From Tissierellia bacterium (GTDB taxonomy: Bacteria; Bacillota; Clostridia; Tissierellales; Peptoniphilaceae): DNA of 64,000 nucleotides. The notes beneath the pieces are model-generated. The model did not search any database. It had not been told where the DNA came from and saw only the letters and a list, made by a program, of their open reading frames with translations. The translations under genes were made by a program, and so were the position numbers. Location: positions 1-64,000 of the forward strand of contig JAUNVW010000003.1 in the NCBI GenBank assembly GCA_030540635.1. The letters are read 5' to 3'. This document shows, piece after piece, positions 17,339-32,469 of the stretch (positions are counted from its first letter, which is position 1; each line of letters opens with the position of its first letter).

Positions 17339-17719
17339 ACAATTCCGCAGTATTTAAATCCTTCATCCTTTATGATTAAGGATAATGAAATTCCACAAAA
17401 AATCTTCAGAATATAAATTTCATATCCTTGATGTTGATAAGCATTATCTGCATTTGTGAATTTTATTTTTTTAGTTGTTTCTTTTTATTTATTATTTTGT
17501 ATGGCGCCTATGAAATAATTATTTAATCAATCATCTAAATTGTGTTTAAAAATGTCATGGCTATGGGCTTTTTATAAACATCTTAGGTTTTTAAATTAAG
17601 TTTTTCGTTAATTAATTTCTTATCCAAGGGATAAATCTCCTTTTCCCCTTTTTTCCATGGAGAACTCATTATATAATATATATAGTATGTAAAAGTTAAA
17701 CCCCTTCTATGTTTAAAGT
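17339..17719. other. Non-coding divergent region between the selA and grd promoters
   Basis: About 380 strongly AT-rich bases with no convincing gene. Minor features are a six-base dyad (ATCCTT/AAGGAT near 17367-17385), a GATAAGCATTATC near-dyad around 17444, and additional AT-rich promoter-like boxes near 17680. It is roomy enough for regulator binding but nothing specific stands out. Confidence 0.45.
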
Positions 17720-17748
17720 TTGCATTCAGATCTCGATCCATGTATAAT
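17720..17748 (+). promoter_or_regulatory. Promoter of the glycine reductase operon
   Basis: TTGCAT (17720-17725) and a perfect TATAAT (17743-17748) are separated by exactly 17 bases. The predicted start near 17755 places the glycine aptamer about 30 bases into the transcript. Confidence 0.8.
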
Positions 17749-17785
17749 GGAGTTAGAGTTGAATGATAATTTTTAATCATATGAA

Positions 17786-17895
17786 GATGCAAGAAGATTT
17801 CTTTGTGCGCAATTTTTTACCAAAGAAAACCGAAGGTACAAGCAGTGCAGTCTACCCATTGCCCTGTGAAATTCTCAGGTCCAAGAACTTGTGTC
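17786..17895 (+). promoter_or_regulatory. Glycine riboswitch aptamer (single)
   Basis: The aptamer can be folded by hand. P1 is GATGCAAG (17786-17793) with CTTGTGTC (17888-17895), P2 is AGAA...TTCT, one hairpin is CTTTG/CAAAG, and another is GCAGTG/CATTGC. The conserved glycine-aptamer cores ACCGAAGG..CAA and TCTCAGGTCCAAGAAC are at the expected places. Only one full aptamer is present. The bases after it (CTCTG...CAGAG, 17904-17925) resemble the short ghost stem found with single glycine aptamers. It stands between the grd promoter and grdX, so it should sense the substrate of the operon. Confidence 0.88.
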
Positions 17896-17915
17896 CGATG
17901 ATACTCTGAAGCGAA

Positions 17916-17956
17916 GCGACAGAGAGACAGGGGTTCTGTTTCTGGTCGCATTTTTT
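17916..17956 (+). terminator. Riboswitch-controlled terminator before grdX
   Basis: GCGAC, GAGA and ACAG (17916-17930) pair with CTGT, TTCT and GTCGC (17936-17949) around a GGGTT loop, followed by six Ts. An alternative stem, CTCTG (17904-17908) with CAGAG (17920-17924), would take up the 5' arm and prevent termination. The layout suits glycine-induced antitermination, as expected for a glycine-degrading operon. Confidence 0.8.
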
Positions 17957-17975
17957 ATTGTATTGGAGATATTTT

Positions 17976-18350
17976 ATGAAAATTTTAACCAATAATCCTT
18001 TAATTCGAGATCAAATGCATTACGATAAATTTAAAATTGAATATTGCAATATCGATTATCTGGATATTCTCCGTCGAGGACGGGACGAGATTCACCGAAA
18101 AAAACGTCTACTCACCCATCCCCTTTACGGTTCTGTAAAACCCAATGAAACGGTTTATCGTACCCTCGTTTTAACTGATGCCAAGGAGCTTGATTTTGAA
18201 TCCTTGCGTTTCATTGAAGAAGCGATTCAAACCGCAGAAAGATTTTTGAAGAATTCTGATCCAAAGGATTGGCCAGAGAGAATCCTAAATGATTTTCAAG
18301 TGATTGATTACGATCTTATTGATCACGCCATTCAACGGATGATTCTATAA
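17976..18350 (+). CDS. grdX: GrdX family protein, function unknown
   Basis: A 124-residue protein encoded first in the glycine reductase operon. It matches GrdX, a small protein found upstream of trxB-trxA-grd clusters in glycine- and betaine-reducing clostridia, by position, size and its N-terminal pattern (ILTNNPLIRD and a following RGRDEIHRKKRLLTHPLYG stretch). There is no signal peptide or membrane segment, so it should be cytoplasmic. ATG 17976 is preferred over an upstream in-frame TTG because a GGAG site lies seven bases before it. The role is not established; a part in regulation or assembly of the complex is inference from position only. Confidence 0.85.
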   Translation: MKILTNNPLIRDQMHYDKFKIEYCNIDYLDILRRGRDEIHRKKRLLTHPLYGSVKPNETVYRTLVLTDAKELDFESLRFIEEAIQTAERFLKNSDPKDWPERILNDFQVIDYDLIDHAIQRMIL

Positions 18351-18381: not shown

Positions 18382-19323
18382 ATGGCCTATGATTTAGTCA
18401 TCATCGGCGGTGGTCCTGCTGGAATGAGTGCAGGATTATACGCAGCGAGAGGTTTGCTTAAAACCTTAATTATTGAAAAAGAAAAAGAAGGTGGACAAAT
18501 TGTTACCACAAATGAATTGGAAAACTATCCAGGTGGCCTTGGAGATTCCGGTCCATCGGTAACGAAGCGAATGAAAGAACAATGTGACGCCTTCGATGTA
18601 GAATTTAAAAGAGCCGATGTCGTCGATATGGACTTTAGCCAAAAAATGAAAAAAGTCATTTTAAAAGACGGTTCTGAAATTGAATCGAAAGCCGTTATCA
18701 TTGCGACAGGGGCAACTCCTCGTAAGATGAATATTCCCGGGGAAAAAGAATTTACGGGAAAAGGCGTTAGCTATTGTGCAACTTGCGATGCCGCTTTCAT
18801 GGAAGGCTTGGAGGTATTTGTCGTCGGTGGAGGAAACTCTGCAGTTGAAGAAGCGACCTATCTTGCAAAATTTGCCCGTAAAGTAACTGTCGTCGTTCGT
18901 GGAGATACTTTCGATTGCGATAAAGTGGCATTAATGCGTGCAAAAGAAACGGAAAATCTCGAATTCCTTATGAATACTTCCATTACCGAAGTTCGTGGAG
19001 ATGGTTTAGTCGAATCCATTGTTCTAAAAAACAATGAAACCGGCGAAGAAACCGTCCATGAAGCCGATGAAGATGACGGAACATTTGGCGTATTCGTATT
19101 TATCGGATATTTACCACAAGCCGAAGTCTTTAAGGGTCATGTGGAGTTAAACGAATGGGGCTATATTGTCAGTGATGAAAATATGCACACCGATGTCGAT
19201 GGCGTATTTGTAGCCGGAGATGTTCGAAACAAAAACCTACGTCAAGTCATTACCGCCGCTGCCGATGGAGCTATCGCTGCAACGGAAGCCGAAAAATATA
19301 TCGATAAGAATTTTGAATCTTAA
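18382..19323 (+). CDS. trxB: Thioredoxin reductase of the glycine reductase system
   Basis: A 313-residue FAD enzyme that reduces the thioredoxin encoded next to it, supplying electrons to glycine reductase. The FAD fold is seen in IIGGGPAGMSAGLYAARG, and the redox pair is Cys132/Cys135 in SYCATCDAAF. The second nucleotide fold GGGNSAVEEA is present. The usual NADPH phosphate-binding motif after it (HRR followed by a further Arg) is replaced by VVVRGDTFDC. Use of NADH or another donor is therefore possible. The gene has an AAGGAGG site and trxA follows after 13 bases. Confidence 0.93.
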   Translation: MAYDLVIIGGGPAGMSAGLYAARGLLKTLIIEKEKEGGQIVTTNELENYPGGLGDSGPSVTKRMKEQCDAFDVEFKRADVVDMDFSQKMKKVILKDGSEIESKAVIIATGATPRKMNIPGEKEFTGKGVSYCATCDAAFMEGLEVFVVGGGNSAVEEATYLAKFARKVTVVVRGDTFDCDKVALMRAKETENLEFLMNTSITEVRGDGLVESIVLKNNETGEETVHEADEDDGTFGVFVFIGYLPQAEVFKGHVELNEWGYIVSDENMHTDVDGVFVAGDVRNKNLRQVITAAADGAIAATEAEKYIDKNFES

Positions 19324-19336
19324 GGAGGATTTTAAA

Positions 19337-19663
19337 ATGGTAGAATTAGATCGTAAGAATTTTGATGAAGAAGTTTTGAATGCAAAGGGATATACCTTTG
19401 TTGATTTTTGGAGCGAAGGTTGTGAGCCCTGTAAGGCTCTAATGCCAAAAGTCCATGATCTTGCAGAAAAGTATGGCGATAAAATTAAGTTTTGCGCTTT
19501 AGATATTGCCAAAGGTCGCCGTGTCGCCATTAGCCAAAAAGTATTGGGTTTACCAACAATGTTAATGTACAAAGATGGCGAAAAAGTCGATGAAATCGGC
19601 GCAGATGACGCTTCGATTGAAAATATCGAAGATATGATTAAAAAGTATTACGAACAAGCTTAA
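19337..19663 (+). CDS. trxA: Thioredoxin with CEPC active site
   Basis: A 108-residue thioredoxin that carries electrons from TrxB to selenoprotein A of glycine reductase. The active site is Cys29-Glu-Pro-Cys32 in WSEGCEPCKALM, not the classical WCGPC; the tryptophan next to the first cysteine is Gly. The cis-proline region LGLPTMLMYKDGE is normal. Glycine reductase clusters are known to carry thioredoxins with changed CxPC sequences, so this is probably tuned to GrdA. The true start is ATG 19337 after an AAGGAGG site; the open frame extends further upstream inside trxB. Confidence 0.95.
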   Translation: MVELDRKNFDEEVLNAKGYTFVDFWSEGCEPCKALMPKVHDLAEKYGDKIKFCALDIAKGRRVAISQKVLGLPTMLMYKDGEKVDEIGADDASIENIEDMIKKYYEQA

Positions 19664-19725: not shown

Positions 19726-21018
19726 ATGCGTCTTGAAATAGGCAAAGTCTTCATAAAGGATATTCAATTTGGAGACGAGTCAAAGATTGAAGATGGTGTG
19801 CTCTATCTTAATAAAGAAGAGCTTGCCGAAGCATCCGGCGCAAATGATGACGAGCATATCGAGTCCATCGATTTCGACATCGCAAGACCCGGTGAATCGG
19901 TGAGAATTACACCGGTGAAAGACGTCATTGAACCAAGGGTTAAAGTTGAAGGAAATGGTGAAATCTTTCCGGGAATTCTAAATAAGGTCGACACTGTCGG
20001 CGAAGGAAAAACAATAGCTTTGAAAGATATGGCTGTTGTTACAACCGGTAAAATTGTAGGTTTCCAAGAAGGTATTGTCGATATGACAGGCCTTGGAGCT
20101 GAATATACTCCATTTTCCAAAACAAATAATCTCGTGGTTATTGCTGAGCCGGTAGAAGGTTTAAAACAACATTTACACGAAGAAGCCGTAAGATTAATCG
20201 GTTTTCGCGTCGCTGATTTCATCGGTCGTTTAGCTGAAAATATCGAACCGGATGAAACAGAATGTTTTGAAACAAAACCTCTATTGGAGCAAGTGGAAGA
20301 ATATAAAGATCTTCCAAAGGTAGCATATGTATATATGTTACAAACACAAGGTCTACTCCATGACACCTATGTTTATGGTGTAGATGCAAAACAAATTGTA
20401 CCGACAATCCTCTACCCTACTGAGATTTTTGACGGTGCAGTTGTTAGTGGTAACTGTGTATCCGCTTGTGATAAGAACCCAACTTATGTTCACCAAAATA
20501 ATGGAGTCATCAATGAACTCTATAAAGAACATGGTAAGACCATTAACTTCTTAGGGGTTATTATTACAAACGAGAATGTTTATTTAATGGATAAACAACG
20601 TTCATCCAACTGGACTTCGAAACTTGCAGAATACATGGGCGTAGATGCGGTCATCGTATCCCAAGAAGGATTTGGTAACCCTGATACGGACTTAATCATG
20701 AACTGCACGAAAATCGAAGACAAAGGCATTAAGACGGTTATTATCACCGACGAGTATGCCGGACGTGATGGTGCATCACAATCCCTTGCCGATGCCAATG
20801 AAAAAGCAGATGCTGTAGTTACCGGTGGAAATGCTAATCAATTAGTAACTCTTCCAAAATTAGATAAAGTAATCGGCCATATCGATGTTGTCGATGTTAT
20901 CGCAGGTGGAGCGAAAGGTTCCCTGAAAGAAGATGGCTCAATCGTCGTTGAAATTCAAGCGATCACAGGTGCAACAAACGAAACTGGATTCGGTTATTTA
21001 TCGGCAAAAACTTATTAA
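19726..21018 (+). CDS. grdE: Glycine reductase component B proprotein (alpha and beta subunits)
   Basis: A 430-residue proprotein of the glycine-specific part of protein B. In this family it is cut before a cysteine to give two subunits, and the new N-terminal residue becomes a carbonyl (pyruvoyl-type) group that forms a Schiff base with glycine. The expected site is between Asn243 and Cys244 in VVSGNCVSACDKNPTY. The remainder is collinear with GrdE. It precedes grdA and grdB, the other parts of the complex. There is no grdF or grdH equivalent in the window, so the system is for glycine rather than sarcosine or betaine. The gene has an AGGAGG site. Confidence 0.96.
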   Translation: MRLEIGKVFIKDIQFGDESKIEDGVLYLNKEELAEASGANDDEHIESIDFDIARPGESVRITPVKDVIEPRVKVEGNGEIFPGILNKVDTVGEGKTIALKDMAVVTTGKIVGFQEGIVDMTGLGAEYTPFSKTNNLVVIAEPVEGLKQHLHEEAVRLIGFRVADFIGRLAENIEPDETECFETKPLLEQVEEYKDLPKVAYVYMLQTQGLLHDTYVYGVDAKQIVPTILYPTEIFDGAVVSGNCVSACDKNPTYVHQNNGVINELYKEHGKTINFLGVIITNENVYLMDKQRSSNWTSKLAEYMGVDAVIVSQEGFGNPDTDLIMNCTKIEDKGIKTVIITDEYAGRDGASQSLADANEKADAVVTGGNANQLVTLPKLDKVIGHIDVVDVIAGGAKGSLKEDGSIVVEIQAITGATNETGFGYLSAKTY

Positions 21019-21059
21019 TCAATTACAATTAAAATTTTAAATGAAGAAAGGATGTTATG

Positions 21060-21536
21060 ATGAGCTTATTAGAAAATAAGAAAATTGTCGTAATCGGTGA
21101 CCGTGACGGTATACCAGGACCGGCAATCGAAGCTTGTGTCAATACCGTTGACAATACAGAAGTCGTATTCTCTTCCACAGAGTGTTTTGTGTGAACGAGT
21201 GCCGGCGCAATGGACCTTGAGAACCAAAAAAGAGTAAAAGATTTCGCTGATGAATATGGTGCAGAAAATCTTGTGGTTCTTTTAGGTGGCGCTGAGGCAG
21301 AAGCTGCAGGACTTGCAGCCGAAACAGTAACAGCAGGAGACCCTACTTTCGCAGGACCTCTAGCAGGTGTAGATTTAGGACTACTTGTCTATCATGTTGT
21401 TGAACCAGAAGTTAAAGAATTATTTGACTCTGCCGTTTATGATGAACAAGTTGGTATGATGGAAATGGTTCTAAATGTCGATGAAATCATCGAAGAAATG
21501 AAAGAAATCAGAGAAGCGAACTGTAAGTTTTTATAA
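21060..21536 (+). CDS. grdA: Glycine/sarcosine/betaine reductase selenoprotein A (in-frame UGA = Sec45)
   Basis: A 158-residue selenoprotein read through one in-frame TGA at 21192-21194. It takes the carboxymethyl group from protein B as a selenoether and passes it to protein C. The motif around the UGA is ECFV[15 protein letters not shown], the hallmark CxxU of GrdA, with Cys42 and Sec45 as the redox pair. ATG 21060 is chosen over the adjacent ATG 21057 because it lies seven bases from AAAGGA. Conventional callers will report only the fragment after the UGA. selA, selB and tRNA-Sec are all in this window. Confidence 0.97.
21192..21212 (+). promoter_or_regulatory. Sec UGA of grdA with possible weak SECIS hairpin
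   Basis: The UGA is 21192-21194. The following bases contain TGC-CGGC-GCA (21200-21209), a short stem with a four-base loop at the distance used by bacterial SECIS elements. The stem is only three pairs as read by eye, so the call is tentative. Confidence 0.4.
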
Positions 21537-21563: not shown

Positions 21564-22874
21564 ATGGATAAAATTAAAGTTGTTCATTATATCAACCAGT
21601 TTTTCGCAGGAATTGGTGGAGAAGAAAAAGCCGATACGGCTCCATTTGTCGCAGACGAATTACCTCCACTAAGTAAACAACTCGATGGAAAACTTGGCGA
21701 CGATTATGAAATCGTAGCAACCGTTGTTTGTGGGGACTCCTACTTCAACGAGCATATCGAAGAATCGACAAAAGAAGTTCTTGATATGATTAAAAAGTTT
21801 GATCCCGATATGTTTATTGCAGGGCCTGCGTTTAACGCTGGACGATATGGAGTAGCTGCCGGTACAATTACAAAAGCCGTTAAGGATGAATTAAACATTC
21901 CATCCCTTACTGGAATGTATATTGAAAATCCAGGTGCGGATATGTTTAAAAAAGATGTTTATATCATCGAAACGGCAGACTCTGCAGCAGGGATGCGTAA
22001 AGCCATCCCGGCAATTGCTAAATTAGCACAAAAATTAGGTAAAGGCGAAACGATCGGTTCCCCTGAAGAAGAAGGATATATGGAACGTGGCGTTCGTGTA
22101 AACTTCTTCGCAGAAGAAACTGGATCACGACGTGCCGTCAATATGCTTTTAAAGAAAATCAATGGCGAAGAATTCACCACTGAATATCCAATGCCAGTAT
22201 TTGACAGAGTTCCTCCGAACCCTGCCATTAAAGATTTAACAAAAGCAACCATTGCTCTTGTCACTTCCGGTGGAGTTGTGCCAAAAGGAAATCCTGATCG
22301 TATCGAATCATCAAATGCCACAAAATATGGTGAGTATGATATTGAAGGTATGGATGCATTTACTGAAGAAAATGCAGAAACAGCCCACGGCGGATATGAC
22401 CCAGTATATTGTAATGAAGATCCAAACCGTGTTCTTCCATTGGATGTACTCAGAGAAATGGAAAAAGAAGGTAAAATCGGAAAACTTTACAACAAATATT
22501 ACACCACAGTGGGAAATGGTACAGCAGTTGCCAGTGCAGAGCAATTTGCACAAGAATTCTCGAAAACATTGTTGGATGACGGTGTCGACGCAGTTATTCT
22601 AACTTCCACCTGAGGTACCTGTACACGTTGCGGTGCAACGATGGTAAAAGAAATTGAACGAGCAGGAATCCCTGTTGTTCATATTTGTACAGTTACTCCA
22701 ATCTCAATGACCGTTGGTGCAAACCGAATTGTACCAGCGATTGCAATTCCCCATCCCCTTGGAGATCCAGGATTGGATGAAAAAGAAGAGTATCAATTGA
22801 GAAGAAAATTAGTGGAAAAATCACTTCATGCATTAACTGTAGATGTTGATGACCAAACAATTTTCGAAGACTAA
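21564..22874 (+). CDS. grdB: Glycine reductase component B gamma subunit, selenoprotein (in-frame UGA = Sec350)
   Basis: A 436-residue selenoprotein that, with the GrdE subunits, binds glycine and transfers its carboxymethyl group to GrdA. The in-frame TGA at 22611-22613 encodes Sec350 in LTST-Sec-GTCTRCGATMV, followed by cysteines 353 and 356 (UxxCxxC). The frame continues through the UGA to 22874, and both halves match GrdB; the C-terminal part reads IPVVHICTVTPISMTVGANR. The gene is preceded by an AAGGAAGGG-type site. Automatic annotation would split it into two open frames. A strong stem-loop follows it. Confidence 0.97.
22611..22640 (+). promoter_or_regulatory. Sec UGA and SECIS-like hairpin in grdB
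   Basis: A six-pair stem, CGTTGC (22626-22631) and GCAACG (22635-22640), closes a GGT loop about 20 bases after the UGA. The distance and a GU in the apical loop fit bacterial SECIS elements recognised by SelB. It is clearer than the one in grdA. Confidence 0.65.
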
Positions 22875-22953: not shown

Positions 22954-24489
22954 ATGAGTTTTCCAGTATTAAAAGGTGCCGGATACGTGTTAGTTCATAC
23001 ACCGGACATGATTGTTCAGAATGGTAGTACATGTGGTACAGAAAGAGTGGTAAATCCTGATTCTGAATTTTTAAAGAAAATCAACGACCATATTCGTTCC
23101 TATGACGAAGTCGTAAATTATTTACCGAATCAGGCGTATATCGGAAATATTCACCCAAAAGAATTAAAAGAAATCGGACAACCTTTCTATGAAAAAGAAG
23201 AGAAAGATCGTTCAAGGGATGGAAAATACGGTGATATTGCACCTCAAGACGAATTCATCGCTTTGATGCAAATTTGTGATGCTTTTGAACTGGTATATTT
23301 AGCCGAAGATTTTGTCGAAGAAATAAAACCAGTAATCGAAGAAAAGTATCCCGAAGTCCAAGAATTCATGAACCGTCTAAAAGGTTCAGATATCGCTTCA
23401 AAAGCTTCAGAATTAATTGAAGAACACAAAGCAGAAGGTCTTTATCACGACGGTGAATTATGCGGTTATGTCAAACAAGCCCATGATATTGATGTGAACT
23501 TAAATGCGCACACAATGTTTGAAAACCTCGTGGTGAAAACTTCCGGCGTTATGGCAGCGATCCAACTCTTGCGAAAAAATGATATCGATCCACTGTCCAT
23601 CGATTATGTGATCGAATGTTCTGAAGAGGCATGTGGGGATGTAAACCAACGTGGTGGCGGAAACTTCGCAAAATCCATTGCAGAAATGATCGGCATTAAA
23701 AATGCAACAGGTTCCGATACACGCTCATTCTGTGCAGCACCAACCCATTCCCTCATTGAAGCTGCAGCCATGGTAAAAGCTGGCGTACACAAAAATGTAT
23801 TAGTTGTAGCCGGTGGATCCACAGCAAAACTTGGAATGAACGCAAAGGATCACGTGAAAAAAGATCTTCCAGTATTAGAAGATGTCGTGGCTGGATTTGC
23901 CGTATTGGTATCTGAAAATGATGGAGAGCATCCAGTATTACGAACGGATTTAACAGGACAACATAATGTTGCAACGGGATCTTCCCCACAAGCGGTAATG
24001 TCTTCCCTAATCTCCGAACCATTGGAAAAAGGCGGATTAAAAATTACCGATGTTGATTCCTACTCCGTTGAAATGCAGAACCCAGATATTACAAAGCCAG
24101 CAGGAGCTGGGGATGTACCAGAAGCAAACTTCAAAATGATTGGAGCTTTGGCCGTCATGAAGGGACATATTGAACGAACAGATCTTCCAAAATTTGTTGA
24201 AAATGGATTACCAGGTTGGGCACCAACCCAAGGTCATATTCCATCGGGAGTACCTTATTGCGGATTCTGTATTGACGATTTAACAAAAGGTGATCAAGAA
24301 CGAGCCATGATCGTTGGTAAAGGTTCCCTATTCCTAGGACGTATGACGAATTTATTTGACGGTGTATCCATCATTGTCGAAAGAAACACTGGTGAATTAG
24401 AAGAAGAAACAGCAGGATCCAACGAGGAAATTAAAAAAGTCATCGCGGAAGCCATGAGAAATATTGCTGAAAATATGATGGAAGAATAG
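22954..24489 (+). CDS. grdC: Glycine/sarcosine/betaine reductase component C, beta subunit
   Basis: A 511-residue thiolase/FabH-like subunit of protein C, which receives the carboxymethyl group from selenoprotein A and, with GrdD, releases acetyl phosphate. Visible blocks are the N-terminal VLVHTPDMIVQNGSTCGTER, the condensing-enzyme-like ECSEEACGDVNQRGGGN, the cysteine block GSDTRSFCAAPTHSLIEAAA, and the C-terminal GVPYCGFCIDDL. It has a GGAGGG site and is followed by grdD after 10 bases. The length agrees with GrdC. Confidence 0.95.
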   Translation: MSFPVLKGAGYVLVHTPDMIVQNGSTCGTERVVNPDSEFLKKINDHIRSYDEVVNYLPNQAYIGNIHPKELKEIGQPFYEKEEKDRSRDGKYGDIAPQDEFIALMQICDAFELVYLAEDFVEEIKPVIEEKYPEVQEFMNRLKGSDIASKASELIEEHKAEGLYHDGELCGYVKQAHDIDVNLNAHTMFENLVVKTSGVMAAIQLLRKNDIDPLSIDYVIECSEEACGDVNQRGGGNFAKSIAEMIGIKNATGSDTRSFCAAPTHSLIEAAAMVKAGVHKNVLVVAGGSTAKLGMNAKDHVKKDLPVLEDVVAGFAVLVSENDGEHPVLRTDLTGQHNVATGSSPQAVMSSLISEPLEKGGLKITDVDSYSVEMQNPDITKPAGAGDVPEANFKMIGALAVMKGHIERTDLPKFVENGLPGWAPTQGHIPSGVPYCGFCIDDLTKGDQERAMIVGKGSLFLGRMTNLFDGVSIIVERNTGELEEETAGSNEEIKKVIAEAMRNIAENMMEE

Positions 24490-24499
24490 AGGTGGGATC

Positions 24500-25657
24500 A
24501 TGAGCAATAAAATCATTGCAGATACACTCTTAGAAATTGCTGATGCCATAGAAAGTGGCGAATTCGGTAAAAAACCAACCATCGCCGTTACCAATATTGG
24601 ATGTGAGCACGGCATTGAAAATATCGCCAAAGCCTGCGAACTCGCCCAATCACCTCAATACAATGTGGTAATGATTGGTAAGGCTTGCGATAACTATAAA
24701 CATATTAAAACCATTGAAGTCGACGGCGAAGACGAAATGTACGAAAAAATGGAGCAAATGCTTGATCAAGGAGAAATTGATGCCTGCATCACCATGCACT
24801 ACAATTTCCCCATTGGCGTTTCAACCGTTGGTCGTGTCGTAACACCGTCTACGGGAAAAGAAATGTTCATCGCAACAACCACAGGAACCTCAGCGACCCA
24901 TCGTGTGGAAGCGATGATCCGTAACACGATCTCTGGTATTGTTGCTGCAAAATCCACGGGAATTAAAGAGCCGACTGTCGGTATATTAAATATCGAAGGA
25001 GCTCGTCAAGTGGAAAAAGGCCTTCGCCAATTAAATGAAAATGGCTACCCCATTCATTTTGCTGAATCTAAACGATCTGACGGTGGCGTTGCCATGAGAG
25101 GTAATGACCTTTTAATGGGAACACCCGATGTCATGGTTACCGATTCCTTAACGGGTAATCTATTGATGAAAATATTCTCATCCTACACCACAGGTGGCGC
25201 CTATGAAGCCATGGGCTTTGGTTATGGACCAGGAATTGGCGAAAACTTTAAACGTCGCGTATTCATCGTATCGAGGGCATCTGGAGCTCCCGTAATCGCC
25301 AATGCCATTCGTTACGCTTACGATACCGTAAAAGATCAAGATATTGTCGCCATTAGTGAACAAGAATTTAAAAAAGCCCATCAAGCAAAATTAGATCAAA
25401 TCTTAGGAGAACTAACGGCTAAAAAAGATGAAGGACCAAAAGAAGAAGTAAAAATGCCGGAAAAAGAAGTCGTTTCTGAAGCCATCTCCGGAATTGACAT
25501 CCTAGAAATAGAAGATGCAACAAGAGCCCTCTGGAAAGAAGGAATCTATGCAGAATCTGGAATGGGTTGTACAGGTCCAATCGTCCAAGTAAATAGCGAC
25601 AATTTAGCGAAAGCTCGACAAATCCTACGGGATCAAAAATATATCATGGAAGATTAA
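24500..25657 (+). CDS. grdD: Glycine/sarcosine/betaine reductase component C, alpha subunit (acetyl phosphate forming)
   Basis: A 385-residue PlsX/Pta-like subunit that forms acetyl phosphate from the thioester on protein C. The two cysteines considered important in the family are present: Cys96 in GEIDACITMHYNFPIG and Cys357 in SGMGCTGPIVQVN near the C-terminus. It is the last grd gene and is followed by a terminator, so the operon runs from grdX to grdD. Acetate kinase, needed to turn acetyl phosphate into ATP, is not in the window. Confidence 0.95.
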   Translation: MSNKIIADTLLEIADAIESGEFGKKPTIAVTNIGCEHGIENIAKACELAQSPQYNVVMIGKACDNYKHIKTIEVDGEDEMYEKMEQMLDQGEIDACITMHYNFPIGVSTVGRVVTPSTGKEMFIATTTGTSATHRVEAMIRNTISGIVAAKSTGIKEPTVGILNIEGARQVEKGLRQLNENGYPIHFAESKRSDGGVAMRGNDLLMGTPDVMVTDSLTGNLLMKIFSSYTTGGAYEAMGFGYGPGIGENFKRRVFIVSRASGAPVIANAIRYAYDTVKDQDIVAISEQEFKKAHQAKLDQILGELTAKKDEGPKEEVKMPEKEVVSEAISGIDILEIEDATRALWKEGIYAESGMGCTGPIVQVNSDNLAKARQILRDQKYIMED

Positions 25658-26943: not shown

Positions 26944-29900
26944 TTATTGGGTGATATCTAAAATCACTTGATTACTTAATGTCGCTGTTCCTCCGATGAG
27001 ATAAACAGAATTTACATTTTCATCAATATATTCTTTTACTACTTCTGTTGTCTTGTTTTGTAAAGTCAATAGAACTGGACTGTCAAGATATACCGCTAAT
27101 GGCGATGCTGATAACGCATCAACAAATACTGTTCCACTTGCTAATAAAGCTTCATCCGATGGGATGAATTTTTTAGCGATTTCTACTGATGTCGCATATC
27201 GATCTTTTCCTGATACGCGTGTCATACCTTGTGCTAAATTTGCACTTATCGAACTATTTCCACCAATAGCGTATACTGTTTTAGCTGACCCGGTGATCTT
27301 TTCCATACCAGGAACAAGAACTTGACCATCTGTTAAAAGAATTGGTGAGTTGTTTTTAGCCGCTGCTGGTGATGCTGTTAAAGCATCTGCTTGAGAAATA
27401 CCATTGGCAACATAGGCATCGTTTACGCCTAGAACTTGAACAACTCTTTCTGCAATTGCCAATGAGGTTTCAAATCGATCTTTACCTGCAAAACGTTCAA
27501 CTGTTAATCCAATTTCCTTTAACTTCTTCTCGACTTTTTCACTTACAGAAGCATTTCCACCAGCAATATAGACTTTTTTTGCTCCTAATCGCTCGATTTC
27601 AGATAATGTTCTGTTATCTAATTGATCGCTTCCCGTTAATAATATAGGTGCACTAGATGCTTTTGCTAACGGACCGGATGTCAGAGCATCTGGCGTTGCA
27701 TAGCTACCCGCTAAGACAATATTGTCTGCTTTGTTAAATACCTTTTTAGAGATAGCAATTGCCGTATCAATTCGATCTTTACCGGCAATACGCCCCTTAA
27801 CCTTTACCTGTCCAAGATCATCTTTATCCTTGTCTTTATGAGGCTCTTCCGGGGTTGTAATTGGATAATCATTTCCACCGCTTCCAGGTGTTGGTTTTGG
27901 CTTAATTGGTTTTGGTTTATTTGGTTTTTCTTTGAATTTTGGTAACAATTCCTCGAATCCTTCAATTAAATCCTCCAACTCTTTCGCCGATGGATGATCT
28001 CCTAAATTATTGTATTGCCCCATTAACTCTTCTAGTTTTCCAAGATCTTCTTCCGAATAATCGTATTTATTTTTCTGATCGAGAATCTCTTGTCCTTTTT
28101 CTGCTAATTTGTTCAATTCATCTTTAAGAGCTTCTTTATCTTTTAATTGGAACTGTTTTATTAGAGCATCTAATTCATTGATCATTTTTCTTGCTTCTTC
28201 ATCCGTTGTATCTTCTTGTTCTAGTAATGAAGTAGCGTTTTTGATCCCTTCTTTTAATGCGTCGAATGCTCCATCATTTTCCACATATTCACTATATTGA
28301 TCCCGAATATCTTGAGCTTTTTCTACCATTTTGAGCAATTCGTCTAAAATCGTACGGTTCTTCGCATTTTCCGGGCGATTAATAATTAAAGTCTCAATGG
28401 TTTCATTTCCTGCATCATCATAGGCAGCAATTGTAAACTCATTTTCGTCCTCTGGTAAATCGACAATGCGCTCAACGTGACCTGTGACTTCTTCTGGGAG
28501 CAAATTCTCCCAAGTTCTATCGACTCGTAATACTAAATTATCATTGATATAAACCTCGAAGTAGTTCATATTCTCTTTGGCATCGATGATAATTCGGCCG
28601 TAAGGAGAAGTATCCGACAAGGGATTTCCTTTTAGCTTTAACTCAACAGGTGTAATATCTTTACGAACCCGGCGAATCACTTCCTCATATACTTCTTTTC
28701 CTTTGGGATCTCTTCCCTTTAATGCAATCTTGATATTAAGAATTCCTTCCGGCATATCTTGAATATCCATTTTACCATTAAATTCTACTTCGATATTATG
28801 AAGTTCATTATGATCTTCAGGTACATTTGTTTCTAAATTGACCCGAGTACCCTCAATTTCATTATTATTCCCATCGACAAAGTAGGCAACAAGCTCATCG
28901 ATTTTTGCGATTTGAGTGATGGTACCTTTTAATGATATCATCGTATCGTCGACGATTTCTCTCGTTTCTTTATCGAATCGCTTTTGATTAAAGGCTTCAT
29001 AATAACCAGGCTCTTTAACAGCGATATTGGGATATTCATAACTCTCTTGATCGATTTCTTCTGGAATATCTTGATCGGGCTTTTCAGATCCTTCGCTATC
29101 TATTTTTATAAATAGATTTAGTAAATCTTCTAGTTCTTGCAACCATTTTTCCAGTTCTTTAGGTTCTGCTTGCCTAAAATTCTTCTCTTTCAGTTCGTTG
29201 ACTTTTTCAGTTAATTTTGCTAATACTTCTTCTTTCGTTTTCGATTCGTCATTTAACTCAAAATCATCTGGACTGTTTAAAATAGCCTTCGCCGATTCCA
29301 TTAAATTTTCCATTTTTGCAATATCTAAATGTTTTACATAGCCTTCACCACTTATTTCGATGGCATTGGAAGAGAAATCTTCCACATAAATGGCAAAGTC
29401 ATCCATACTTTCAGCAACAGCATTCTCCACAGCTAATGTGATTTCTTTTTCTTCAACATCGAGAGCATATTCATCTAGATACTGTCTAACAGTTTTTATT
29501 TTATTATTTGTATCTAAATATTGAACTTCAACATATGCTAAACCTGAAAAATCATCTTTTAATGTTAAATGAACCTTACCATCTTCATAACGGTTATCTA
29601 TTAAAGTAGGAGCAATATTATCAAGAATTAATTGATAACGATATTCCTGTTCCTTTGCTCCAGGATAATTCACTCTACCTTTAATACGATATTGGTATTC
29701 ACCATCTGGAACAGTTGTGCCATTGATCGTTCCATCCCAACGACTAGATGGTTTAAATTGGAACATATTCATTATCGATCGATATAAACGACCTGTTTTT
29801 ATGATCCGAGGTTCTTTATGAAGTTCTCGAAGAACTTTATTTCCATCTTTGTCGAGAATGTCAAAGTGAACATCAAGGGCTGATCGCAATACGCCTAACA

Positions 29901-32469
29901 AAGGCATGACACCGCCTCGGTAAAATGGATTATCCCGGGTATTGAAGAAGATATAAGGTGTTTCATCAATTCTTCTCGCATTCCAATATTCCCACCAGCT
30001 TCCATCTTTGTTTAGATTTACAAAATCTAATCCAAAATAACCTTCAAGGGGTTTAAAATTCACTTCATCACCATCAAGGATACTCATTTTATCTAAAAAT
30101 GGTAAATTACCCCATCCATCGTCTCCAGTACCTTTAAATCCTAAGACTGGTACACCGATATTGTCTTGTTCTCCCGTACTAGCTTCTAAGAAGAAATAGC
30201 CTTCAACATAAGAACGAGTCTTAATCTTTGATAAATCGACGGTGAAAGTTTTGCTTTCGCCTGCTGTTATTGTTCCTAAATCTTGAGTATCTTTTGTAAA
30301 GGCATGTTCGGTAAAACGACCGGCTGCCACTTCCTCTTCTAATAGAACGACTTTTACGCGGTAAGTGATGTCTTTATCAAAGTCAGGTAATTTATGAATT
30401 TCAAAAGTAGCATCGAAAGAACCTTCTACTTCTTTAATTTCTAATTTACCATCTTTTACATCATCATTGGTTCCAGTCGCATAAAGAACAACTGGTGCAT
30501 TTACTGCTTTTTCTAAATTCATCATACCGGCACCTTGTTGGCGTGGAGTGTAGTATGTCGCTCCATCTCGAGGATCTAGTAATGGATCTGCCGTATTTAA
30601 AAGAATTACCTGTCCAATATCATCTTGATCTCCGTAGTAGGTAACACCATTTTTTTCTGCTGTGACTTTTGTGATTCCTCGCTCCCTTAGGGCTTGTAGC
30701 ACAACAGCAGAGCCTCCTGCAATATGTGGAGCCGCCATGGATGTCCCACTCATATTTCCATAGGTATTATCGTTTTGTAACGAATTAATATTTCCACCAG
30801 GAGCTGCTAAATCCGGCTTCATTCGTAGATCAAACGTTGGTCCCCAAGAGGAAAAAGTACTGACTTCGTTTCCTACTGGGTTTTCCGTTAGTTTCTCTTC
30901 GACGGGTATAGATACAAGGAGATCTGAATTTTTAGCTAACGCTGCTTTTAATTTTTGTCCATCGGCGTAATTAATGCTCACGGCTGGATAAGAATCAATC
31001 AATTCCACGCCTCCCATGGCAATTGGTATGACAGCATCTTCAACATTATCTACTATGATGACGCCGTCCGCTCCATTCTCGATAGCATTCTGATATTTTT
31101 CATTAAAACTTATTTTACCACGGTCGATAAGTGCAATCTTACTATTAACATCACTGCCTAGGAAATCATCCGGTTCTCCGAAAGACACATACTCGATTTT
31201 CTTATCCACTACCCCTTTGTCCGGGAATGGAGATAATGCGAATAGAGATTCATCGTTATATTCTACGGCCTTTGCCTTTAGATATGAATTCTCAATGGCT
31301 GCCGCCGCAAATGAATTCGGCATATTTGCAGGGCTTCCTAGGGCAGAAACATCTGGATGCTCAGCTAAATTATTGTAATCTGCTCCATAGGTGTTATTTC
31401 GGTCATTGCTAGCTGCAACAACACAGACCATACCGTGATCCCTTGCTTTTTGGAAAACCTGTTCTGAAATTGGCGATTCTTCTTCGACATAGAATGCCGC
31501 AGGTCCTCCAAGGGACATATTCATGGCATCTGCGCCAAGAAGTATAGCATCTTCCAGGGCTTCTAAATAAACATGTTCAAAAACAATGGAAGCATCTTTA
31601 TCATCACTAAATACTTTCATCGCTAAAATCTGAGCATGGGGTGCCACACCATTGATACCACCTTTTTCTTTTCCAAAGGCTGCTATGGTACCTGCAACGT
31701 GTTGACCATGTTGGCCATCTGCAGATGTATCTACGATTTTATTATTTTTATCGGCATAATTATAACCAAATACAACTTTATCATTGAACCACTTTCCTCG
31801 AACATGATTCTCTGATTTAAAACCATAACCATCTGTTTCAAGGATTTGATTCATTTTATCTTGATCGTATTTATTCCGATCAAGGGTTTTCATTTTATCC
31901 ACATTCCAGTCCTTGTGATTTGGATCAACTCCCGTGTCAATCACTGCCACGAGCATGCCATCCCCTTTGTATCCGAGATCCCAAGCTTTGGGCGCAATCA
32001 CTTGATTTACGGAACTATTCATGGCTGGCTCCATCACGGGCCGATGGAAAGCTTTTTCTTGTTGAATGGATTTAATACCACGGATACCGTGTAGTTTATC
32101 TACATCTTTTACTTTGACTTTCGCTGAAAAACCAGTTATTAGTACGTGAAAATCACCAGTTTTTTCTAAATTCATACCCTTTTTCTCAGAATCTGTCGTG
32201 ATTCGTTTCTCTGTTTTTTGAACATCGACTTCTGCTTTACGGGCATTTCGTGATAAAGCCGAACGGCCACCTCTACGATCGATCGCCGGCTCATCTTCCG
32301 TTTCAATCAGGATATCCACTTCATCATTTTCATTCAATCCTATTTCCAAAAGTTCCTTAGTACTGAGCAAATCCTTTTCATCATTTGCATAGGATCTTGT
32401 CGGAAATAATGGTAAGATCATTGCCAGTACAAGGACGAATGAAAATATTCTTTTCAAATTACTCTTCAT
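26944..32469 (-). CDS. Very large secreted subtilase (S8) with C-terminal CWB2 cell-wall anchors
   Basis: An 1841-residue exported protease. It has a signal peptide (residues 1 to about 28), a propeptide-like region to about 150, and a subtilisin catalytic domain with Asp178 (AVIDTGVD), His254 (GQHGQHVAG), oxyanion Asn355 and Ser577 (NMSGTSMAAPH). A PA domain is inserted at about 425-520, as in lactocepin/C5a-peptidase relatives. Fn3-like and Ig-like domains follow to about 1370. A charged helical linker (about 1380-1520) and a Pro/Lys-rich hinge lead to three CWB2 repeats (about 1555-1650, 1655-1745, 1750-1841, each with a GKDR motif) that bind the cell wall non-covalently. It would cut host or dietary proteins at the cell surface and feed the neighbouring Opp importer. 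All catalytic residues are present. Confidence 0.95.
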   Translation of the reverse strand: MKSNLKRIFSFVLVLAMILPLFPTRSYANDEKDLLSTKELLEIGLNENDEVDILIETEDEPAIDRRGGRSALSRNARKAEVDVQKTEKRITTDSEKKGMNLEKTGDFHVLITGFSAKVKVKDVDKLHGIRGIKSIQQEKAFHRPVMEPAMNSSVNQVIAPKAWDLGYKGDGMLVAVIDTGVDPNHKDWNVDKMKTLDRNKYDQDKMNQILETDGYGFKSENHVRGKWFNDKVVFGYNYADKNNKIVDTSADGQHGQHVAGTIAAFGKEKGGINGVAPHAQILAMKVFSDDKDASIVFEHVYLEALEDAILLGADAMNMSLGGPAAFYVEEESPISEQVFQKARDHGMVCVVAASNDRNNTYGADYNNLAEHPDVSALGSPANMPNSFAAAAIENSYLKAKAVEYNDESLFALSPFPDKGVVDKKIEYVSFGEPDDFLGSDVNSKIALIDRGKISFNEKYQNAIENGADGVIIVDNVEDAVIPIAMGGVELIDSYPAVSINYADGQKLKAALAKNSDLLVSIPVEEKLTENPVGNEVSTFSSWGPTFDLRMKPDLAAPGGNINSLQNDNTYGNMSGTSMAAPHIAGGSAVVLQALRERGITKVTAEKNGVTYYGDQDDIGQVILLNTADPLLDPRDGATYYTPRQQGAGMMNLEKAVNAPVVLYATGTNDDVKDGKLEIKEVEGSFDATFEIHKLPDFDKDITYRVKVVLLEEEVAAGRFTEHAFTKDTQDLGTITAGESKTFTVDLSKIKTRSYVEGYFFLEASTGEQDNIGVPVLGFKGTGDDGWGNLPFLDKMSILDGDEVNFKPLEGYFGLDFVNLNKDGSWWEYWNARRIDETPYIFFNTRDNPFYRGGVMPLLGVLRSALDVHFDILDKDGNKVLRELHKEPRIIKTGRLYRSIMNMFQFKPSSRWDGTINGTTVPDGEYQYRIKGRVNYPGAKEQEYRYQLILDNIAPTLIDNRYEDGKVHLTLKDDFSGLAYVEVQYLDTNNKIKTVRQYLDEYALDVEEKEITLAVENAVAESMDDFAIYVEDFSSNAIEISGEGYVKHLDIAKMENLMESAKAILNSPDDFELNDESKTKEEVLAKLTEKVNELKEKNFRQAEPKELEKWLQELEDLLNLFIKIDSEGSEKPDQDIPEEIDQESYEYPNIAVKEPGYYEAFNQKRFDKETREIVDDTMISLKGTITQIAKIDELVAYFVDGNNNEIEGTRVNLETNVPEDHNELHNIEVEFNGKMDIQDMPEGILNIKIALKGRDPKGKEVYEEVIRRVRKDITPVELKLKGNPLSDTSPYGRIIIDAKENMNYFEVYINDNLVLRVDRTWENLLPEEVTGHVERIVDLPEDENEFTIAAYDDAGNETIETLIINRPENAKNRTILDELLKMVEKAQDIRDQYSEYVENDGAFDALKEGIKNATSLLEQEDTTDEEARKMINELDALIKQFQLKDKEALKDELNKLAEKGQEILDQKNKYDYSEEDLGKLEELMGQYNNLGDHPSAKELEDLIEGFEELLPKFKEKPNKPKPIKPKPTPGSGGNDYPITTPEEPHKDKDKDDLGQVKVKGRIAGKDRIDTAIAISKKVFNKADNIVLAGSYATPDALTSGPLAKASSAPILLTGSDQLDNRTLSEIERLGAKKVYIAGGNASVSEKVEKKLKEIGLTVERFAGKDRFETSLAIAERVVQVLGVNDAYVANGISQADALTASPAAAKNNSPILLTDGQVLVPGMEKITGSAKTVYAIGGNSSISANLAQGMTRVSGKDRYATSVEIAKKFIPSDEALLASGTVFVDALSASPLAVYLDSPVLLTLQNKTTEVVKEYIDENVNSVYLIGGTATLSNQVILDITQ

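Follow-up and report, generated by a model that had tools for sequence, protein, structure and literature searches.

The leader that precedes grdX in the window (the whole stretch of 64,000 nucleotides that was analysed) is very probably a singlet glycine riboswitch of type 1 that works as a transcription-termination ON switch for a glycine reductase operon. A glycine aptamer with covarying helices, a ghost stem, a terminator that is mutually exclusive with this stem and the operon itself were all identified by computation (Table 1). Type-1 singlets and the glycine riboswitch of the Clostridioides difficile grd operon are already known, and the window element is a well-formed further example, mostly ordinary. 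With covariation behind it, the element places a compact glycine switch in front of a glycine fermentation operon that depends on selenium, in anaerobes of a family that has been studied little.

Table 1. Features of the leader and of the glycine reductase operon in the window.
Feature	Position	Strand	Evidence
Promoter-like site TTTGCA-18-TATAAT (putative)	17719..17748	+	10/12 consensus matches
P0 helix of leader-linker kink-turn	17776..17779 with 17899..17902	+	helix 1: 88.2% of cells paired, 4/4 pairs changed on both sides
Glycine riboswitch aptamer (RF00504)	17781..17900	+	41.4 bits, gathering 32
P1	17786..17793 with 17888..17895	+	helix 2: 98.5% of cells paired, 8/8 pairs changed on both sides
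P2 hairpin, loop longer than in relatives	17798..17828	+	fold; about 22 extra bases compared to the shortest relatives (alignment A3)
P3 arm with CCGA.GG and CUCAGG core	17829..17880	+	6/8 P3a pairs invariant (n=17); P3b covaries, 3/4
Ghost aptamer stem, proposed antiterminator: CTCTG 17904-17908 with CAGAG 17920-17924	17904..17924	+	-6.9 kcal/mol; aligns to second-aptamer P1 of RF03166
Intrinsic terminator hairpin; 5' arm 17916-17930 includes ghost 3' strand	17916..17949	+	-17.1 kcal/mol
Terminator U-tract	17951..17956	+	sequence
Ribosome-binding site TTGGAGA	17963..17969	+	sequence; outside the switching helices
grdX	17976..18350	+	NF038093, 128 bits, cut-off 40
trxB, thioredoxin reductase of grd operon	18382..19323	+	TIGR01292, 356.5 bits, cut-off 343.5
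trxA, thioredoxin	19337..19663	+	NF047697, 164 bits, cut-off 140
grdE (component B alpha, glycine-type reductase)	19726..21018	+	NF040793 (sarcosine GrdG) full-length, 640 bits, below cut-off 780; name from neighbours
grdA selenoprotein, in-frame UGA 21192-21194	21057..21536	+	NF040748 on the part after the UGA; read-through translation
grdB selenoprotein, in-frame UGA 22611-22613, SECIS 22614-22651	21564..22874	+	TIGR01917, 613.5 bits, cut-off 602.2; SECIS RF01990; translation
grdC	22954..24489	+	NF040746, 787.6 bits
grdD	24500..25657	+	NF040747, 581.5 bits

A first-pass annotation of this DNA had proposed a single glycine aptamer and named a covariance score below threshold among the results that would speak against it. 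When the 64 kb window was searched with Rfam models, RF00504 scored above its gathering cut-off (E 5.4e-5). This match is the only one in the window and the only one in the whole assembly from which the window comes (1.30 Mb in 54 contigs, incomplete at 69%); as in a type-1 singlet, one aptamer is thus present. Fourteen of the 17 elements found before grdX in the same bacterial family served to build a second covariance model, R1; those of the window, G346 and G355 were held out. In the window R1 hit 17770-17924 (100.6 bits, E 8.7e-23), while its runner-up there reached only 13.3 bits, and it matched the two other held-out rows, L100 and L035, with 98.2 and 78.5 bits. The Rfam model RF03166 (glycine-GGAnGA) aligns to the whole element including the ghost stem (17777-17926), with 54.3 bits and therefore below its gathering score of 110. 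In this alignment CTCTG and CAGAG occupy the P1 of the second aptamer, with 3 bases between replacing 45 model positions. By both RF00504 and RF03166 the second aptamer is a hairpin only, and not the second complete aptamer of a tandem. We rejected RF03166 as a specific label for the family since the window element falls short of its gathering score and glycine riboswitches throughout the class are picked up by the model: at E <= 0.001, 112 of 291 genomes of the class were matched, with 0 above the cut-off. A literature text search for GGAnGA gave only chance strings among the matches listed.

The 17 elements preceding grdX were aligned, and a structure was assigned to them with the window fold and the pattern of the Rfam model as guides. 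A four-pair P0 and a UAU-GA/GA element, which we take to be kink-turn-like from the general form of kink-turns, surround an eight-pair P1. Standard pairs fill 91.6% of the cells, compared to 74.4% after shuffling, and both partners change in 18 of the 33 pairs. Shuffled alignments reach a covariation score of 0.201 and those with slid partners 0.08-0.12 (maximum 0.122), compared to 0.551 for the observed one. Every pair of P0 and P1 covaries. P3a is paired in 94.1% of cells and P2 in 64.7%, the alignment being poor in the latter. The window carries the RF00504 core (CCGA.GG and CUCAGG) together with helices P1-P3; across the 17 sequences these two motifs, and likewise both adenosines of J1/2, show no or hardly any variation. 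These adenosines form part of the glycine pocket. The stability of the whole-leader fold is modest (z -1.44; 16 of 200 shuffles equal or better). Nothing on the glycine pocket was found in the available part of PMC3764141.

The promoter that had been proposed upstream of the aptamer was recovered as a site in the expected form, and 12% of 50 shuffles score equally, so that a promoter at this position is plausible. A best promoter-like site is present upstream of all 17 family elements; in 10 of them 8% or less of 50 shuffles equal it, and in the other 7, the window included, more than 8% do.

The first-pass annotation had listed both a ghost-like stem and a competing pairing of CTCTG with CAGAG that could break the terminator arm. 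Both are present, at exactly the positions given, and they are one and the same helix and not two elements. As in a type-1 singlet, this ghost stem lies 3' of the aptamer. It shares bases 17920, 17923 and 17924 with the terminator, and the two structures are therefore mutually exclusive. Across the 17 elements the ghost helix (helix 6) is paired in 91.2% of cells, a count lowered by G346 and G355, which are misaligned there, and 1 of its 6 pairs changes on both sides. Sequence conservation with little covariation is expected at this place if the 3' strand has a second role in the terminator, and the predicted terminator reuses at least 3 of the 5 ghost bases of this strand in 16 of the 17 elements. 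Conservation and reuse together support the antiterminator role.

The terminator also stood up to its control. Its hairpin, with a 3' arm at 17936-17949, is followed by A and six U (AUUUUUU). When the sequence 3' of the ghost stem was shuffled with its dinucleotides preserved, 0 of 200 versions were as stable. A simple consensus terminator scan, which allows neither internal loops nor bulges, found 0 sites, with 0.6 expected; this stem contains one of each, and the empty result was rejected as evidence against the terminator. In the 13 of 17 family elements with usable controls, 0 to 4 of 200 dinucleotide shuffles match the observed terminator stability. The controls were unusable for L149, L100, L160 and L103, in which 5, 5, 1 and 5 ghost bases respectively are shared when the U-tract is adjusted; the predicted terminator is weak in L160 (G310), 1 of the 17. 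Overlap of the ghost strand with a downstream hairpin was also seen in 64-170 of 200 shuffles for the 13 elements, which means that it is the stability of the hairpin, and not the overlap, that goes beyond chance.

Folds of the growing transcript were predicted from a common start at 17755 to ends at 17924, 17930, 17936, 17940, 17944, 17949 and 17956. The ghost stem is predicted with a probability of 0.94-1.0 for ends 17924 through 17944. At 17949 the terminator is predicted to take over (ghost stem 0.04, terminator about 0.95), and at full length (17956) the values are about 0.71 for the terminator and about 0.29 for the ghost pairs. In constrained folds, the best full-length state with a ghost stem is a misfold in which P1 is broken. 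When P0-P3 and the ghost stem are enforced, the energy is -41.8 kcal/mol, compared to -49.1 kcal/mol for P1-P3 with the terminator. The terminator state is thus better by 7.3 kcal/mol, and read-through would need the ligand or kinetics to hold the ghost stem. The predicted folds contain what a transcriptional ON switch should have, namely a terminator that excludes the helix to be stabilised by the ligand. A full-length misfold in which the 5' part of P1 (17783-17790) pairs with the terminator tail (17948-17956), lies near the terminator state at -49.0 kcal/mol and is probably due to chance.

The genes downstream form the series grdX-trxB-trxA-grdE-grdA-grdB-grdC-grdD, and a tRNA-Sec is encoded near it. 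The proposal of a glycine-degrading operon beginning with grdX was confirmed by the GrdX model and the grd genes; GrdB clears the cut-off of the glycine-specific TIGR01917 but not those of the sarcosine and betaine models. A second grdX-grdE-grdB-like group is present on another contig of the same genome (L241, 7291-10084 in G000:C40). The GrdE/GrdB pair there is less glycine-like, GrdB scoring 438.6 bits with TIGR01917 against the cut-off of 602.2, and the R1 search gave no riboswitch match upstream of this second grdX, which fits a glycine-specific switch at the first. Downstream of the operon in the window, on the minus strand (26944-32469), lies a gene for a subtilisin-like serine peptidase of 1841 residues with an S-layer-type C-terminal part.

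From these elements the following mechanism can be proposed. As the polymerase leaves the promoter, the aptamer would fold first and the ghost stem next. With glycine bound, tertiary contacts between aptamer and ghost stem, aided by the P0 kink-turn, would keep the ghost stem closed; CAGAG would then be barred from the terminator and transcription would read through into grdX-trxB-trxA-grdEABCD. Without glycine, the 3' arm of the terminator would invade the ghost stem, the stronger hairpin would form and transcription would stop at the U-tract. The ON polarity would follow from the ghost stem serving as an antiterminator that excludes the terminator. We infer it, as we do the size of the effect, and the polarity suggested earlier for this leader is supported both by this layout and by its agreement with what the available part of PMC11477304 describes for C. 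difficile, where glycine induces the grd operon.

An OFF switch, or a switch acting on translation instead of termination, appears unlikely. The available part of PMC11477304 does describe glycine riboswitches before transporters as OFF switches, but in the window a terminator with a U-tract is present, the ribosome-binding site stands apart from the switching helices, the antiterminator is the ghost stem adjoining the aptamer, and the genes downstream degrade glycine. We consider it very unlikely that an altered core responds to another ligand such as sarcosine or betaine. At J1/2 the window has GAAGA in place of GGAGA, a U-U mismatch occurs in P3a of 8 of the 17 elements, the window included, and RF00504 scores in the family go as low as 38.7 bits, all of which would fit such a change. 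The near-invariance of CCGA.GG, CUCAGG and both J1/2 adenosines argues against it, as does the behaviour of GrdB with the three reductase models; glycine is the probable ligand.

The substitutions in the core and the long P2 insert of the window copy could also be taken as marks of decay, in which case the element would be a remnant without function whose terminator is always on. This is hardly credible, since P0, P1 and P3b are kept by compensating changes, the ghost stem is kept as well, and the operon downstream is intact with its two in-frame UGA codons. The reading as a glycine-responsive ON switch remains the preferred one.

Several known systems resemble the switch proposed here. In the available part of PMC6944388, type-1 glycine riboswitches are singletons with a 3' ghost aptamer; the window element likewise has one aptamer and a 3' ghost stem that corresponds to the P1 of a lost second aptamer. 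According to the same part of that work, 93% of type-1 singlets precede glycine cleavage genes, whereas the window element precedes glycine reductase genes. The reference list of PMC9481103 includes Ruff 2016 and Torgerson 2018 on the singlet, the latter with helical switching in its title, and the available text describes two triplets of type-1 singlets. The closest counterpart by operon and position is the riboswitch before the C. difficile grd operon, an operon induced by glycine according to the available parts of PMC11477304 and PMC10880999, and this riboswitch is also thought to be a glycine ON switch. In a Clostridioides metagenome-assembled genome (locus L164) the singlet, the ghost stem and the shared terminator arm are arranged as in the window. 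Unlike Clostridioides, the window comes from a different bacterial family, its P2 loop is longer, and its terminator stem begins further upstream, at GCGAC, with an internal loop. The B. subtilis gcvT tandem, an ON switch in the available part of PMC5666159, which also states that singlets need the ghost aptamer, shares with the window element glycine activation through a transcription terminator, as proposed here, and the leader-linker kink-turn; in contrast to its two full aptamers, the second aptamer of the window is shrunk to a 21-base hairpin.

In the 130 genomes of the bacterial family to which the window belongs, Peptoniphilaceae in NCBI terms, GrdX was detected in 40 and a glycine aptamer in 31, at 32 places in total. 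The downstream gene, assigned from the reading frame that follows and by visual inspection, is grdX at 17 places (window included), trxB-like at 11, transporter-like or masked at 3, and another gene at 1. Each of the 17 elements before grdX consists of one aptamer followed on its 3' side by a ghost stem. The earlier remark that single glycine aptamers are less common than tandem ones is correct overall, with 782 singletons among 2,998 glycine riboswitches in the available part of PMC6944388, but does not apply before grdX in this family. R1 matches were found at 17 of the 59 grdX places of the family, leaving 42 without an element; one further match, of 14.3 bits, was dismissed as noise. Judged by eye, the 11 riboswitches directly before a trxB-like gene comprise 7 tandems (L132, L133, L134, L140, L141, L144 and L158) and 4 singles (L137, L151, L152 and L155). 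One R1 match of 106 bits (L139, G355:C46:18268-18367) precedes neither grdX nor trxB and has a long reading frame downstream.

In order to extend the comparison beyond the family, contigs of named genomes were scanned with the GrdX alignment. An upstream R1 match was present at 75 of the 80 best loci kept from 456 relatives, a set biased to family-like GrdX; 7 of the 75 are training sequences. By motif, 33 of the 75, L224 among them, have single elements only, 40 have tandems only, and 2, from Peptoclostridium, have several elements. Eight of the named single loci lie on the same contigs as the family set. In a large group of operons, grdX is thus as a rule preceded by the single-aptamer form. 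Of the 39 single elements at named grdX loci (L224 included), 37 have at least 2 of the 5 ghost bases within the predicted hairpin, and both exceptions are in L203. In L224 (2713-2859 and downstream, Anaerophilus nitritogenes), the second aptamer lacks the CCGAAGG and CTCAGG cores and keeps P1; it resembles an intermediate between a tandem and a ghost aptamer.

The GrdX tree has 81 rows and few columns (122), many of its forks are open and its root is unknown, so that gain and loss of the second aptamer are indistinguishable. For this tree L224 was set to tandem by hand, its second aptamer being there, though decayed. One branch (SH-aLRT 95) separates 34 singles, including the window, and 1 row without a switch from 41 tandems, 4 rows without a switch and the single L186. 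The minimum number of changes between single and tandem is 2. L186 (Caloramator) is placed among the tandems in the free tree, and a tree with all singles in one clade is compatible with the data (p-AU 0.43). The single side is common to Peptoniphilaceae, Peptostreptococcaceae, Peptoclostridium and Gemella. The tandem rows L188, L215 and L227 (G445, G460 and G465) probably belong to the same order as the window. Holding together ten Peptoniphilaceae-side rows and nine rows that we take, from NCBI family membership, to be other Tissierellales was rejected (p-AU 5e-5), with groups picked after inspection of the tree.

Together, these comparisons suggest that the one- or two-aptamer architecture at grdX tracks the GrdX protein tree, against taxonomy, and that operon and switch move together. 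It is conceivable, if not quite probable, that at grdX the change between single and tandem happened essentially once and that an operon-plus-switch cassette then spread between Peptostreptococcaceae, Peptoclostridium, Gemella and the family of the window. For the aminomethyltransferase and symporter genes studied in PMC6944388, limited evidence of such transfer is reported in the available part of that work. The literature searched gave no description of a single/tandem split along GrdX and no paper in which Peptoclostridium and a glycine riboswitch are both named. Matched single and tandem switches on the same operon form a set on which the role of the second aptamer could be tested.

Serial arrangements were observed at two loci, L222 (1474-2704, Peptoclostridium litorale) and L203 (1916-2787, a Peptoclostridium metagenome-assembled genome), where three single aptamers stand one after the other before grdX, and a separate promoter-like site and ghost stem accompany each of the three. 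For the middle and last aptamers of L203, no hairpin involving the ghost strand is predicted. A tandem element lies there in the opposite orientation.
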